Source: Gemmatimonas sp. (lineage in GTDB: Bacteria; Gemmatimonadota; Gemmatimonadetes; Gemmatimonadales; Gemmatimonadaceae). Taken from it: a stretch of DNA of 64,000 bases. Position 1 is the stretch's first letter. The number at the start of each line of letters is the position of its first letter. Below the pieces are notes generated by a model. The model saw nothing but the letters and a program-made list of their open reading frames with translations, had not been told where the DNA came from and did no database searches. The position numbers and the translations under genes were made by a program. Positions 44,874 through 53,529 of this stretch are shown here, piece by piece. The DNA lies in assembly GCF_021298855.1 (NCBI RefSeq), contig NZ_JAJTHI010000010.1:1-64000 (forward strand), given 5' to 3'.

Positions 44874-45719
44874 TTGCGGGAATACTGGGAGAAGGTAATT
44901 TGTCCACATTCCATCCACATCCAGAGGGCTAGCGCTATCAGTTCTCCCCAGTCCCTCAAGTACGAATACGAGCAGTACGTCGAGCACGAGATCGAGGACT
45001 ACAAGGACTCGGTTTCGCGGAGCGCGCTGCTGAAGATCGGCGACGAGGCGGTCGAGGCACTGCGCAAGGCGGACCAGATCGCGTTGACGGAGCTGCTGGT
45101 CTGGCAGGAAGTGGATCGCATCATTGCGCGCCGCCTCCGGCTTCCGACCTACGCCACGTGGAAGCGCCGCCGGCTGCGCATGCTCGAGGCCTACCGTCGG
45201 CCGGAGCACTGGGGGATCGATCCCAACGCCGCGCTCGTGCGCGCCCTGGCCGATTCGAGCGACCGTCACGTGCTGGTGGCGGGTGCCGAGCGGGAGGGGC
45301 CGGCGCTGTACTTGGCGGCGCGTGGCGCGGCCGTAACGGCCGTAGAGCCCGCGGAAGACGCCGTGGAGCGCGTGGTGAAGGCCGCCCATGCGGCAGGGCT
45401 TACCGAGCGAATTCGTGGCTATTGTGCCGATCTGGGAGCCTGGGCGCCGGACGTGGCCCTGCACGCGGTGGTCTGCTCGCCCAGTGCGTTTGCCGGGCTC
45501 ACGCCGCAGGATCGCGCGCGGGTGATCGAGGTGCTGCAGAGCGCGACCGTGGACGGGGGCGTGCACCTCGTCGAGACGATCGCTGCCGGTGCCGACAGCC
45601 GCGCCGATGGACTCCCCCTCGAGGAGTTGGCGCACCGCTACCGTGGGTGGACGATCTCGGTGGAACGCACGTCGGGGTTGCGCGAAACGTTCATGGCGCG
45701 GAAGGAAGCGGTCGCCTGA
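44874..45719 (+). CDS. Predicted S-adenosylmethionine-dependent methyltransferase-like protein
   Basis: A protein of up to 281 residues. A helical charged N-terminal part (YEYEQYVEHEIEDYKDSVSR, then VDRIIARRLRLPTYATWKRR) precedes a Rossmann-like domain (HVLVAGAEREGPALYLAARG, TAVEPAEDAVER, then AVVCSPSAFAGL). The only usual start codon is a TTG at 44874. The ATG at 44851 lies in another frame and yields a 15-codon ORF ending just after a GGAGAAGG sequence (44888-44895). So either TTG is used, or the true start is a rare codon downstream of that Shine-Dalgarno-like site. The methyl-acceptor substrate is unknown. Confidence 0.65.
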   Translation: MREYWEKVICPHSIHIQRASAISSPQSLKYEYEQYVEHEIEDYKDSVSRSALLKIGDEAVEALRKADQIALTELLVWQEVDRIIARRLRLPTYATWKRRRLRMLEAYRRPEHWGIDPNAALVRALADSSDRHVLVAGAEREGPALYLAARGAAVTAVEPAEDAVERVVKAAHAAGLTERIRGYCADLGAWAPDVALHAVVCSPSAFAGLTPQDRARVIEVLQSATVDGGVHLVETIAAGADSRADGLPLEELAHRYRGWTISVERTSGLRETFMARKEAVA

Positions 45720-46257: not shown

Positions 46258-46545
46258 TTACGCCGCAGCAGGAGCCGGAGCCGCCGCCGCCTTCTTGGCG
46301 CGCTTGGCCGGCTTGCGAGCCGGCTTCTTCGCGGCCTTCTTCGCGGTCTTCTTGGCGCCCTTCTTGGCCGCCTTCTTCACGACCTTCTTGGCCGCCTTCT
46401 TCACGGCCTTCTTGGCCGCCTTCTTGGCCGGCTTCTTGGCGGCCTTCTTGGCGGCCTTCTTGGCCGGCTTGCGCGCGGCCTTCTTCGCGGCCTTCTTGGC
46501 CGGCTTCTTCGCCGCCTTCTTGGCGGCCTTCTTGGGAGGAGCCAT
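46258..46545 (-). CDS. Histone H1-like DNA-binding protein
   Basis: A 95-residue, extremely basic protein made almost wholly of Ala/Lys/Pro repeats (KKAAKKPAKKAAKKA type, about 20 KK pairs), ending in an AAAAPAPAAA tail. It matches bacterial H1-like proteins (the basic tails of HupB and Hc1), which bind and condense DNA through lysine-rich arms. Start at 46545 follows a GAGAGG ribosome site by 9 nt. An imperfect inverted repeat GCTCACTTTCC/GGAAAGGTGAGC (46576-46604) lies in its leader. A related tail occurs on the NYN protein at 49711. Confidence 0.8.
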   Translation of the reverse strand: MAPPKKAAKKAAKKPAKKAAKKAARKPAKKAAKKAAKKPAKKAAKKAVKKAAKKVVKKAAKKGAKKTAKKAAKKPARKPAKRAKKAAAAPAPAAA

Positions 46546-47301
46546 TTGAACAACCCTCTCACGAGAGATGGAAACGCTCACTTTCCCCCGGTGGAAAGGT
46601 GAGCACACACGTCGGGCGGCGCATGCACCGCGTCGTCGTGCGCTACGCGGCCTCCAGGAGGCACGCGCAGGGGAGTGTCCGCACCGCCACCGCGGCGGCC
46701 GATGCAGACCAGACTGCGGACCGCCTCACCACCTGCGTGGCAAGGGGACCGGACAGTTGGTGGAAAGACGTGGCAGCGTCGTGCAACGCAACGGCGCGAT
46801 CGCCGATGCCGTGGAGCCGCGTGGCACGCTGACGGGCGGGACCGCTCGGACGCGCCACCGTGATGTTGACGGCAGGCACGGAGCGAGCCGTCGTTCCGCG
46901 CCGGGGCGCGAGCAACGACGGCGAAACGGAAGCCGACGAGCAGTGGTCGTCAGCCTCAAAGACGGTGGTCGCAATCGCGACGCGGGACTTCGGGTGGAAC
47001 TCGTGCCGTTTTATCGCCACGCGTTGCCGATGGGGACTGCGCGCCCCGATCCTGCGTGAACTCTGCAGCTCAGGGAATCCGGATGTGGACAGCGCGCGCA
47101 AGTCGTTGAATTGACGCGAATATACGCGTGGATAATTCAAACGCGCAATAGCGCGTATAAAGAACGCGCGCGATTAACGAAGACTCGCGGCGGACCGACG
47201 CGGTCGAACGCCTACCAGAGCCCGCGTCACCGTGCGACTTTTGTCGTTCCCTGCGACGAACATCCTCCGGAGCGTCGCTCCGGTTCACGACGTGGAGTGA
47301 C
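46546..47301. other. 756-bp intergenic region with palindromic operator candidates
   Basis: No convincing gene. The left part holds the H1-like gene leader. The middle has short frames on both strands with poor composition. The right part (47106-47170) is AT-richer and holds two 16-bp palindromes and promoter-like boxes (TTGAAT at 47106, GATAAT at 47131, TATAAA at 47156) upstream of tdh-kbl. Confidence 0.5.
47114..47156. promoter_or_regulatory. Paired 16-bp palindromes upstream of tdh-kbl
   Basis: ACGCGAATATACGCGT (47114-47129) and ACGCGCAATAGCGCGT (47141-47156) share the form ACGCG-N6-CGCGT and start 27 bp apart. GATAAT lies between them. They look like a double operator for a dimeric regulator acting on tdh-kbl, or on a divergent transcript; which is not clear. 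Confidence 0.5.
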
Positions 47302-49710: not shown

Positions 49711-51894
49711 TTACTTCTTCTTCGCCGCCTTCTTGGCGGGCGCCTTCTTGGCCGCTGGCGCCGCCTTCTTGGCCGGAGCCGCCTCCTTCTTGGCCGGTGC
49801 CTTCTTGGCCGCCGGAGCGGCCTTCTTGGCGGGTGCGGCGGCCTTTGCCGGTGCCTTAGCCGGGGCCTTAGCCGGGGCTTTAGCCGGGGCCTTAGCCGGG
49901 GCCTTTTCCGGGGCCTTGGCCGCCTTCTTGGCCGGTGCCTTGCCGCCCTTCCCGGCCGGAGCGGCGGCCGGAGCCTCGACCGCTGGCGGTTCCGCCGGCA
50001 CCGCCGGAGCCGCGGGCGCCGGAACGGCGGGTGCCGGAGCCGGCTCCACTGCCGCCGGCACCGCCGCGTTCACTGCCGGACGCGATCCGCCCACGACCCC
50101 GACCATGAGGAGCCCCGGCGGCGGCGCGCCCGGCCCCTTGCCGCGCCCGCCAATACCCCGCGCGCCCATACCCCGCGGCGCCGCCGGCAGCAGCGCCTGC
50201 GCCGCCTTGGCCTCGGCCTTCTGCTGGTCATCCACCGCCTTGAGCTGGTCCACGATGCTCGCCGCGTCCGCGGCGCGCGCCACTTCCCAGTCGTCGCCGC
50301 GACGACGCAGGTCGATCATGTTCGCATCGTGCGCATCCTGCAGTACCCGTTCGAACATGCGCGTGGCCAGGGACTCGCTGTCGCGGCCGAGCAATTCGAA
50401 CGCCCGCTGGCGGGCTGCACTGGCCGTGGTGACCTGATCTCCCGAGACGAGTGACTCGACCGCCCGCCGCACGAGGTCGAACGCGTCGCTGCGCGTGAGC
50501 CGCTCGCCGCTGCGGCCGATGGCATCGGAGACCTCCGTGCTGCGGAACGCCGGCGCCACTTCGGGGCGCGCCGTTTCGCCCCCCGCGCGCGGCTCGGGGC
50601 GCGCGTCGGCACTGGTCGGTTCGCCGTCATCGCGACGGTCACGGAACCGATCACGCCCCCGCCCGCGACCGCGACGCCCACGGTCGCCACGCCCCTCGGG
50701 GCGCGCCTCCGGCGCTGGGGCGGCATCGGCCGGCGCCGTCTCGTCGGCATTGGCGGCCGCCGGCAACGGGCGAATGCCGAGCGCCGCGATCACCGTCTGC
50801 GGATCGATCATCTCGCCCACCGGCATCGGGATCTCGGCCGTCTCGTCGAGCGCCACATCCACGTCGGCGCCACGCTCCGCGCCCTCCTCGGCCGGTTCCC
50901 CGTCGCGGGGTTCCCGCTCCCGTTCGCCGCGATCGCGACCACGCCCGCGACGCCCACGGCGTCCGCGGCGTTCGCGCTCCTCACGTCCTTCGCGCTCGAG
51001 GCGATCATCGGCCGGCACCGTCGGCGTGGCCGCAGCGGCCGCCACCACCGTGCCGTCGGGCACATCCACTTCGAGCTGGCCGCTCTCGAGCTTGGTGACC
51101 TTCAGGAGCCCACGCTGCTGTGCCTCGTGCACGAAGCGCGAGAACTTCGGGTGGCCCAGGTTCTTCTCGTCGAACGACGCATCGATTTCCTGCATCACCT
51201 GCTTGAGGCGGTCGCTGCGCATGACGTCGCCGTTGCGCTTCATGCGCCCCACGGCCTCGGTCACGAGCTCCCAGGGGTCCCAGCGCGTGGTCTCGTCCTC
51301 GCCCGTCTTCACGAGGCCCGCGAGCGCGTTGTACGAGTAGTACTCGTCGCAATTCATGACCAGCAGATCGCTCGACGACTCGCGGATGCCCACGCCGATC
51401 ACGTACTTGCCGTACTCCTTGAGCTTGATGACCATGCTCGAGAAGTCGGAGTCGCCACTGAGCAGCACGAACGTGCCGATCTCGGGGCGCGTGAACACCA
51501 GCTCCAGCGCGTCGATCGCCAGGCGGATGTCGGTGGCGTTCTTCTTCGACGAGCCGTAGGCCGGCGCGAAGATGAGGTCGATGCTCGCTTCGGTGAGCGG
51601 CACGATGTACTGCGGATAGCGGCGCCAGTCGGCGTAGGCGCGGCGCACCGCGACCTTGCCCTTCACGATGTCCGACGAGAGGAGGTTCTTGAGCTCTTCC
51701 TGCAGGTCGGAGCGGATGCCCATCGTGACGTTGTCGAAGTCGATGAGCAGCGCGGCATTCGGCGCGTGCGCCGGCGGCGCGACATTGGGTTGGGCCACCG
51801 GGGCCATGGGAGCGACCGACGCGGGGCCGCGATGGAACGGGGCAATGGAGCGGGTCGGCGACGATGCGGCCGACCGGGAGGGATGACGACTCAT
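49711..51894 (-). CDS. NYN-domain nuclease with LOTUS domains, RG-rich linkers and H1-like tail
   Basis: A 727-residue multidomain protein. Residues 47-195 are a NYN (PIN-like, LabA/DUF88) nuclease domain with acidic residues D52/D54 (IDFDN), D122 and D128 (TDIRLAIDA) and D148/D150 (SGDSDF). Residues 205-280 form an OST-HTH/LOTUS-type helical domain (WELVTEAVGRMKRNGDVMRS). 300-430 hold two Arg/Gly-rich stretches (GRRGRRGRGRDRG; GRRGRGRGRDRFRD). 465-540 resemble a second LOTUS domain. 570-727 are a Pro/Ala then KKAPAKAPAK H1-like tail. Probably an RNA-binding ribonuclease tied to nucleic acid. It follows the acyl-CoA ligase gene by 6 nt. Confidence 0.85.
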   Translation of the reverse strand: MSRHPSRSAASSPTRSIAPFHRGPASVAPMAPVAQPNVAPPAHAPNAALLIDFDNVTMGIRSDLQEELKNLLSSDIVKGKVAVRRAYADWRRYPQYIVPLTEASIDLIFAPAYGSSKKNATDIRLAIDALELVFTRPEIGTFVLLSGDSDFSSMVIKLKEYGKYVIGVGIRESSSDLLVMNCDEYYSYNALAGLVKTGEDETTRWDPWELVTEAVGRMKRNGDVMRSDRLKQVMQEIDASFDEKNLGHPKFSRFVHEAQQRGLLKVTKLESGQLEVDVPDGTVVAAAAATPTVPADDRLEREGREERERRGRRGRRGRGRDRGEREREPRDGEPAEEGAERGADVDVALDETAEIPMPVGEMIDPQTVIAALGIRPLPAAANADETAPADAAPAPEARPEGRGDRGRRGRGRGRDRFRDRRDDGEPTSADARPEPRAGGETARPEVAPAFRSTEVSDAIGRSGERLTRSDAFDLVRRAVESLVSGDQVTTASAARQRAFELLGRDSESLATRMFERVLQDAHDANMIDLRRRGDDWEVARAADAASIVDQLKAVDDQQKAEAKAAQALLPAAPRGMGARGIGGRGKGPGAPPPGLLMVGVVGGSRPAVNAAVPAAVEPAPAPAVPAPAAPAVPAEPPAVEAPAAAPAGKGGKAPAKKAAKAPEKAPAKAPAKAPAKAPAKAPAKAAAPAKKAAPAAKKAPAKKEAAPAKKAAPAAKKAPAKKAAKKK
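49849..49920. repeat. 12-bp minisatellite in the NYN tail
   Basis: Six tandem 12-bp units of the form CGGGGCCTTAGC (variants in the first, third-from-last and last) encode A-K-A-P repeats on the minus strand. Copy-number change by slippage would keep frame and alter tail length. Confidence 0.8.
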
Positions 51895-51900
51895 GACAGC

Positions 51901-53529
51901 CTAGCCTGGATACGATACTGGGTGATCGAGCGCGTTCGCGTGCAGCGCCGTGGCGCTCAGGGCATTCGCACTCAGCGCGATGGCACGCGCGAGTTCTCGT
52001 CGGCGGATCTTGCCGCTCCCGGTCATGGGGAACGCGTCGAAGAAGCGGACGAGGTCGGGGACCTTGTCGGCGGCCATGGTGTCCCGGGCGAACCGCTTGA
52101 TTTCGTCGCCCGTGATGACCGCCCCTTCCACTGCCACGATGCACGCGCAGACCAGTTCTCCCATGACGTCATGGGGCACACCGATCACGCAGACATCGTC
52201 CACTGCCGGATGCGCGCGCAGGCGATCTTCGAGTTCGCGCGGATAGAGCTGGATGCCCCCGCGCGAGATCGTTTCCTGGCGACGTCCGAGGATCCTCACG
52301 GTGCCGTCCTCGTCGATGATCCCGAGATCACCGGTGAGAAAGAACCCGTCCGGCGTGTGGACTTTGGCAGTCTCCGCCGGCATGCGCAGATACCCGCGCA
52401 TGAGGTTGGACCCGCGCACGGCGAGTTCGCCGACCGCTTCGGGTCCGTGCAACTGTCCCGTCATGATGTCCATCGCCATCACCTCGATGCCCGGCATCGC
52501 GGTGCCCACCGAGTCCCGGCGGGTCGCTTCGCTGTCGCTGAAGCGGGTGATGGTCACGACGGCGCCCGTCTCGGTGAGGCCGTACGCCACGAGGACGTCG
52601 CACCAGCGACGCACCTTGCGGACGAGTGCCTCAGCGACCGAACTGCCGGCCATGAGACCGGTGCGCAGCGAGCGCAGCCGCGACGGGTCGAACGCCTCCT
52701 CGCGCATGAGGAGGTGATACTGCGTGGGGACGCCGTGGAGGACCGTGACCTGCGCCTCCGCGATGAGCGCGAGCGCCCCCGCCGCCTCGAAGGCCGGCTG
52801 CAGCACCAGGGTGGCACCGCTGGCCATGGCGCCGAGCATGGCACTGAAGCCGAACACCGCACAAAACGGCACCGCCGTCAGCACGCGATCCTCGGGAGAC
52901 AGCTCGAGGGCCTGTGCGGTGCGCACGGCGTTTTCGACGAGCGCGCGATGCGACAGCTGCACCCCTTTCGGCTTGCCCATCGTGCCCGACGTGTACACGA
53001 CGGCGAGATCGCGCGCATCGTCGACGTCGTCCACAACCGGCACCGGCTTCCCGGCGCCGCGCGACACGAGATCTTCGAACTGGAAGATCCGGTCGTCGTA
53101 CCAGAGATCCTCCTCCCCCACCGTGACGACGTACTGCAGATCGGGGAGGTCGCCCAGCAGTTCTTCGAACCGCTGCAGGAAGTCGACGCCGTTCCACCGT
53201 TCGATGGTGACGACGGCGCTGGCTTCCGCGTGGCGCAGCTGGTAGCGCAGGTCATGCACCCCCAGCGTGGGGTTCACCGGGACCAGCACGGCACCGAGTC
53301 TGGCCGCGGCGAGGGTGGTGATGATCCACTCCACCCCGTTGGGGAGGTTCACGGCGATGCGATCGCCCGCCCCCAGTCCCAATTCGGAGAAGGCTGCCGC
53401 CAGGGAGGATGCATCGGCATCCACCTGCGCGTATGTCCATGTCCGTTGCCCGGTGGTCGCCAGTGCGCGCGCAGGGTGCTCCTGTGCACGACGGGCGATC
53501 AGTGGGGCCAGGGACCACGATGCTGCCAT
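51901..53529 (-). CDS. AMP-forming acyl-CoA synthetase / ligase
   Basis: A 542-residue ANL-superfamily enzyme that activates a carboxylate as acyl-AMP and passes it to CoA or another thiol. Motifs: VVYTSGTMGKPKGVQLSH (P-loop), VAYGLTETGAV, GFFLTGDLGIIDEDG, GRRQETISRGGIQLYP and the C-terminal catalytic Lys in MTGSGKIRRREL. The substrate is not predictable; medium or long chain fatty acids are common. The C-terminus adds a short repeat ALSANALSATALHANAL not typical of the family. GGAG ribosome site 4-5 nt before the ATG. First gene of the ligase-NYN-glycosylase remnant operon. Confidence 0.9.
   Translation of the reverse strand: MAASWSLAPLIARRAQEHPARALATTGQRTWTYAQVDADASSLAAAFSELGLGAGDRIAVNLPNGVEWIITTLAAARLGAVLVPVNPTLGVHDLRYQLRHAEASAVVTIERWNGVDFLQRFEELLGDLPDLQYVVTVGEEDLWYDDRIFQFEDLVSRGAGKPVPVVDDVDDARDLAVVYTSGTMGKPKGVQLSHRALVENAVRTAQALELSPEDRVLTAVPFCAVFGFSAMLGAMASGATLVLQPAFEAAGALALIAEAQVTVLHGVPTQYHLLMREEAFDPSRLRSLRTGLMAGSSVAEALVRKVRRWCDVLVAYGLTETGAVVTITRFSDSEATRRDSVGTAMPGIEVMAMDIMTGQLHGPEAVGELAVRGSNLMRGYLRMPAETAKVHTPDGFFLTGDLGIIDEDGTVRILGRRQETISRGGIQLYPRELEDRLRAHPAVDDVCVIGVPHDVMGELVCACIVAVEGAVITGDEIKRFARDTMAADKVPDLVRFFDAFPMTGSGKIRRRELARAIALSANALSATALHANALDHPVSYPG

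Follow-up and report, generated by a model that had tools for sequence, protein, structure and literature searches.

Bacterial nucleases joining an NYN (DUF88) domain to one or two OST-HTH (LOTUS) domains were described in 2010 and proposed to act as stand-alone RNA-degrading enzymes, with no conserved linkage to CRISPR or RNA-dependent RNA polymerase (RdRP) genes (Anantharaman, Zhang and Aravind, PMC2848206). Among eukaryotic proteins with this pairing, the NYN domain of MARF1 is an endoribonuclease (PMC6294520) that in mouse requires four aspartates for cleavage (D178, D215, D246 and D272; PMC10226599), and the plant protein DNE1, comprising one NYN and two LOTUS domains, cleaves mRNAs (PMC10226599). 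Here, we analyzed a window of 64,000 nucleotides from Gemmatimonas sp. (contig NZ_JAJTHI010000010.1, positions 1 to 64,000 of the forward strand), in which a minus-strand open reading frame (ORF; 51894..49711) encodes a 727-residue protein of this type. The ORF is a real conserved gene, with 80 tblastn-confirmed homologues in other genomes. We put the probability at roughly 65% that its product is an endoribonuclease similar to MARF1 and DNE1 that serves a housekeeping role in class-level Gemmatimonadota, and in which LOTUS domains would guide the NYN nuclease on cellular transcripts. The features of the gene, with the evidence for each, are the following, where pLDDT stands for the predicted local distance difference test score.

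49711..51894, minus strand: complete ORF, 727 residues, in the order NYN, LOTUS1, RG linker, LOTUS2, motif and basic tail (translation, homologous loci)
51334..51756, minus strand: NYN (PIN-like) nuclease domain, residues 47–187 (PF01936, structure match, invariant Asp)
51055..51282, minus strand: LOTUS1 (OST-HTH), residues ~205–280 (PF12872, pLDDT, structure and profile matches)
50860..51006, minus strand: RG/RE-rich low-complexity linker 1, residues 297–345 (composition, pLDDT <50, conserved RRGRRGRGR core)
50620..50712, minus strand: RG-rich linker 2, residues 395–425 (composition, pLDDT <50)
50260..50508, minus strand: LOTUS2, a divergent second OST-HTH-like winged helix, residues ~463–545 (pLDDT, profile-profile comparison, relatives)
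50191..50256, minus strand: predicted helix after LOTUS2, residues 547–568 (AlphaFold2, pLDDT ~85)
50092..50178, minus strand: short linear motif PRGMGARG...PPPxLLMVGVV, residues 573–601 (conserved amid the disordered C-terminal region)
49714..49947, minus strand: Lys/Ala/Pro-rich, H1-like tail, residues 650–727 (composition, tandem repeats in the DNA)

The 2010 family of LK-nucleases with OST-HTH domains is defined by an amino-terminal DUF88/NYN domain followed by a single or duplicated OST-HTH, an arrangement also present here. The protein is thus a lineage-specific version of that family, and the initial annotation went too far in calling it undescribed, as the core architecture was already contained in the 2010 paper. 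In contrast to that family, the OST-HTH pair is here separated by ~180 residues of RG-rich disordered chain, LOTUS2 is divergent, and a C-terminal motif and a lineage-specific tail are added. In the open-licence literature we found no description of the spaced LOTUS pair, the RG linkers, the tails or the core-gene status, and none linking LOTUS with "Gemmatimonad-"; as far as found, what is particular to this protein is the wide, RG-rich spacing of the LOTUS pair, together with tails that are specific to lineages and a core-gene status that extends across the class. MARF1 (Limkain b1) of animals provides the closest solved NYN structures (5yaa, 6fdl) and likewise carries its LOTUS domains C-terminal to the NYN domain, whereas its RRM domains and many LOTUS repeats were not found here by Pfam. 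If its LOTUS-like second winged helix is counted, the protein has the same set of domains as Arabidopsis DNE1 and MNU1/MNU2, which pair a single NYN with two LOTUS domains (PMC10226599, PMC9181182); however, the MNUs contain OHA and WW domains, DNE1 binds DCP1, and all of them are eukaryotic. A compact alphaproteobacterial protein encoded on Rhizobium plasmid pC5.7c (L105:3971-4711) also combines NYN (2.5e-36) and OST-HTH (2.7e-17), but with its 246 residues, ~29% identical over the core, it lacks the linkers, the second LOTUS domain and the tail.

Scanning the 727-residue protein against Pfam returned NYN and OST-HTH and no other family. Residues 47–187 matched PF01936 with 89.7 bits (cut-off 24.2; E 3.4e-25), and the putative metal-binding residues D52, D89, D122, D148 and D150 were invariant in 61 relatives and also retained in two distant NYN-LOTUS proteins (L106 and L107) at 27–29% identity. 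The full-length AlphaFold2 model resolved both LOTUS domains, whereas the NYN domain was modeled poorly (pLDDT ~40), because the relatives in the alignment were too alike. A core model of residues 40–285, for which the alignment was extended by L106 and L107 (viral contigs), reached a mean pLDDT of 80.5. Its best structure matches were the NYN domains of mouse and human MARF1 (Z 19.7 and 19.2), with Vibrio VPA0982 (2qip) at Z 17.8 and the next unrelated fold at only Z 8.9; the sequence profile independently retrieved 2qip (6.4e-8). With a score above the curated cut-off, a PIN-like fold and conserved acidic residues, the domain belongs to the NYN (PF01936) family. Judging from spacing and the ranges aligned at the fold level, D52, D89, D122 and D148 would correspond to the four essential MARF1 aspartates D178, D215, D246 and D272, respectively.

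LOTUS1 directly follows the NYN domain. The whole-protein Pfam scan yielded a marginal OST-HTH match at residues 224–260 (22.2 bits, just below the cut-off), and the domain scanned alone scored 26.6 bits against PF12872 with a cut-off of 23.8. In 30 relatives, LOTUS1 passed or nearly passed this cut-off in every case, each with E <= 0.01. Its pLDDT exceeded 90 across most of the domain in the full-length model, and its structure matched the LOTUS domain of TDRD7 (3rco, Z 8.6) and the bacterial 2kzv (Z 7.5), the latter retrieved together with 2kpm, another solved bacterial OST-HTH structure, by the sequence profile.

For LOTUS2, AlphaFold2 predicted a winged helix at pLDDT 94–97. The LOTUS2 family profile aligned to that of LOTUS1 with an hhalign probability of 96.9% (E 1.5e-10), LOTUS1 as query detected a second, downstream copy in the genomes of 36 class-level relatives (E down to 1.8e-10), and in one relative this second copy matched PF12872 at 1.4e-7. 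The structure matches of LOTUS2 were generic winged helices, including linker-histone globular domains (Hho1p, Z 9.2, one of many), and a Foldseek search with the full-length model likewise returned nothing but generic winged helices at E <0.001.

By prediction, roughly half of the residues are disordered, with 393 of them at pLDDT <50 in the full-length model, a count that partly reflects the NYN domain before the improved alignment. Linker 2 is occupied in only a minority of relatives. Among the 78 residues of the tail (650–727) are 25 Lys, 36 Ala and 13 Pro, encoded by tandem-repeat-like DNA with units of 12 to 57 base pairs (bp). The Lys-rich tail is confined to close relatives, where its length and composition vary, and more distant relatives have non-basic C-termini with a net charge near zero instead. 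Many of these (class relatives L064-L083) finish in FWSKVKRGLTGG or GLLRRMSAALQ-like segments, several of which have a hydrophobic moment exceeding that of most shuffles, whereas others do not; possibly, such segments form an amphipathic, membrane-binding helix. The Pfam scan gave no H1 match, the tail resembling H1 in composition only, and we rejected it as a defining domain because of its tandem-repeat-like DNA and its absence beyond close relatives; it is an accessory. A stand-alone basic protein of 116 residues with H1-like Lys/Ala repeats (AAKK) and no Pfam match is encoded ~3 kb from the NYN gene (46258-46608, minus strand).

The initial annotation had thus correctly recognized an NYN and a LOTUS domain of MARF1-type likeness, both folds being returned by structure prediction, as well as the two RG-rich segments. 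Its domain list stands for the parts it placed, but lacked LOTUS2 and the motif at residues 573–601, and the histone-like tail that it described is present as a Lys/Ala/Pro-rich segment, albeit one of low complexity and limited to close relatives.

We used the NYN+LOTUS1 core to assess the distribution of the gene. All 80 homologous loci belong to Gemmatimonadota/Gemmatimonadetes or close equivalents. The core was found in 54 of the 59 genomes of the family and in 112 of the 121 genomes of the phylum sample, at 69–100% identity and with a single full copy each; it was not found in the six genomes of a different class within this sample. The gene is therefore single-copy, strongly conserved and near-universal in one Gemmatimonadota class. 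Its neighborhood is stable as well: 56 of the 80 loci contain a histidine kinase gene that is transcribed divergently, 53 contain KBL and 44 contain TDH. This single-copy conservation within a stable housekeeping neighborhood argues for a core endoribonuclease of mRNA decay or maturation, and against a role in defense.

By analogy with the characterized eukaryotic proteins, the 727-residue protein would have RNase activity and bind RNA. The NYN domain would act as a PIN-like, metal-dependent endonuclease on single-stranded RNA, while LOTUS1 and the tethered LOTUS2 would bind RNA, probably at G-rich or structured stretches, and thereby select and position the substrates. According to the part of PMC12247748 that cites Ding 2020, eukaryotic and bacterial LOTUS domains bind G-quadruplex (G4) RNA. 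Additional binding of low specificity to anionic polymers such as RNA may come from the RG segments and from the basic tail, which is lineage-specific; these parts may also localize the enzyme or concentrate it in ribonucleoprotein (RNP) assemblies. The enzyme would cleave cellular transcripts, whether to degrade them or to mature their 5' ends, alongside RNase E/G and RNase Y; since both of these are encoded in the same genome, we rejected the idea of a sole decay enzyme.

Several points weigh against this housekeeping endoribonuclease. LOTUS domains can also bind proteins, as with Vasa in eukaryotes. Pfam gives no match to LOTUS2 in the window protein itself, so that this domain is LOTUS-like and divergent, not a textbook case, and the equivalence of the aspartates to those of MARF1 is based on fold-level alignment and spacing, not on residue-by-residue superposition. 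Furthermore, MARF1-type NYN-LOTUS nucleases are a subject of work on plants and on the germ cells of animals, and for bacterial proteins of this kind the literature found gives no measurement of activity, of RNA binding or of a substrate.

The alternative surviving best, though we regard it as rather unlikely, is a factor for the 5'-end maturation of tRNA, rRNA or mRNA rather than a decay enzyme. Its model would be the plant mitochondrial MNU1/2, which share the NYN and two LOTUS domains and, when mutated, leave mRNAs with extended 5' ends (PMC9181182), and core-gene conservation would suit a fixed substrate; however, the neighborhoods of the 80 loci showed no linkage to RNA-processing genes. 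We also consider, as a doubtful extension, that this class-core bacterial counterpart of MARF1/DNE1 is built like an RNP-granule protein and forms an RNA-decay condensate or an anchored degradosome hub. Two tethered LOTUS domains and RG-rich disordered linkers would then be combined with tails that serve as exchangeable anchors, one branch having a Lys-rich tail and others possibly an amphipathic helix.

The initial annotation had favored a surveillance or defense protein, which would cut phage or plasmid RNA. In its favor, conflict systems include proteins with NYN domains, mouse MARF1 restrains the expression of retrotransposons (PMC6294520), and relatives of the core are found on plasmids (323 records) and in a few phages. 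Against this, the gene is slowly evolving as well as near-universal and single-copy in its class, it lies in a conserved chromosomal neighborhood of metabolic and signaling genes, PADLOC gave no meaningful family match for the protein or its direct neighbors, and the 2010 survey did not find such genes linked to any of the known RNA-targeting systems (PMC2848206). Its near-universality, slow evolution and context thus make a defense function improbable. Least plausible is a catalytically idle RNA-binding scaffold or RNP organizer, in which LOTUS domains, RG segments and basic tail would nucleate assemblies and the NYN domain merely bind RNA: the extensive predicted disorder and the RG and Lys-rich segments would suit it, but a scaffold without catalytic activity would have no need of invariance at the candidate metal-binding aspartates, all of which are invariant.

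A housekeeping endoribonuclease present as a single-copy, near-universal gene in a culturable phylum would offer a clean place to ask for the ancestral function of NYN-LOTUS proteins, and the same protein could show whether RG-rich segments and basic tails organize bacterial RNA decay.

Upstream of the NYN-LOTUS gene, at a distance of 6 bp, lies the following gene.

51901..53529, minus strand: acyl-CoA ligase (AMP-binding; PF00501, E 4.4e-85)

The ligase, which the initial annotation had described as co-transcribed, is a probable operon partner at this locus, yet it adjoins the NYN-LOTUS gene in just 21 of the 80 loci. Since these include near and far relatives alike, the adjacency is probably old but often lost; the other loci have unrelated genes or the histidine kinase upstream. 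Given its occurrence in 21 loci only, we did not take functional coupling to the ligase into the mechanism. Promoter and terminator scans were uninformative. The neighbors yielded a single PADLOC match, weak and to a generic methyltransferase segment, several kb away; a methyltransferase-like protein (44874-45719, plus strand) matched mad2 weakly (31.9 bits), probably reflecting the shared methyltransferase fold.

The plasmid records carrying relatives of the NYN core are from Klebsiella (111), Rhizobium (66) and Vibrio (33), among others, and some of these relatives adjoin insertion sequence (IS) elements, a cold-shock gene or toxin-antitoxin genes (L103, L105). Viral contigs yielded no relatives, either with the Gemmatimonadota core or with the phage-record sequences as query. 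The unannotated record MT835574.1 ("Bacteriophage sp.") encodes an NYN protein (L110:1485-2891) that has an RG/RS-rich linker and whose C-terminus is LOTUS-like, and because of this linker, low-complexity NYN-LOTUS linkers may have arisen more than once. The genome with the window itself encodes a second NYN protein (L002:673-2055, minus strand, contig C46) containing a cold-shock-like stretch (GVVTKVHANGYGFVRGDDGADYYFRRSDF), which by its sequence recalls the NYN fusions to S1/cold-shock domains of the 2010 paper (PMC2848206).
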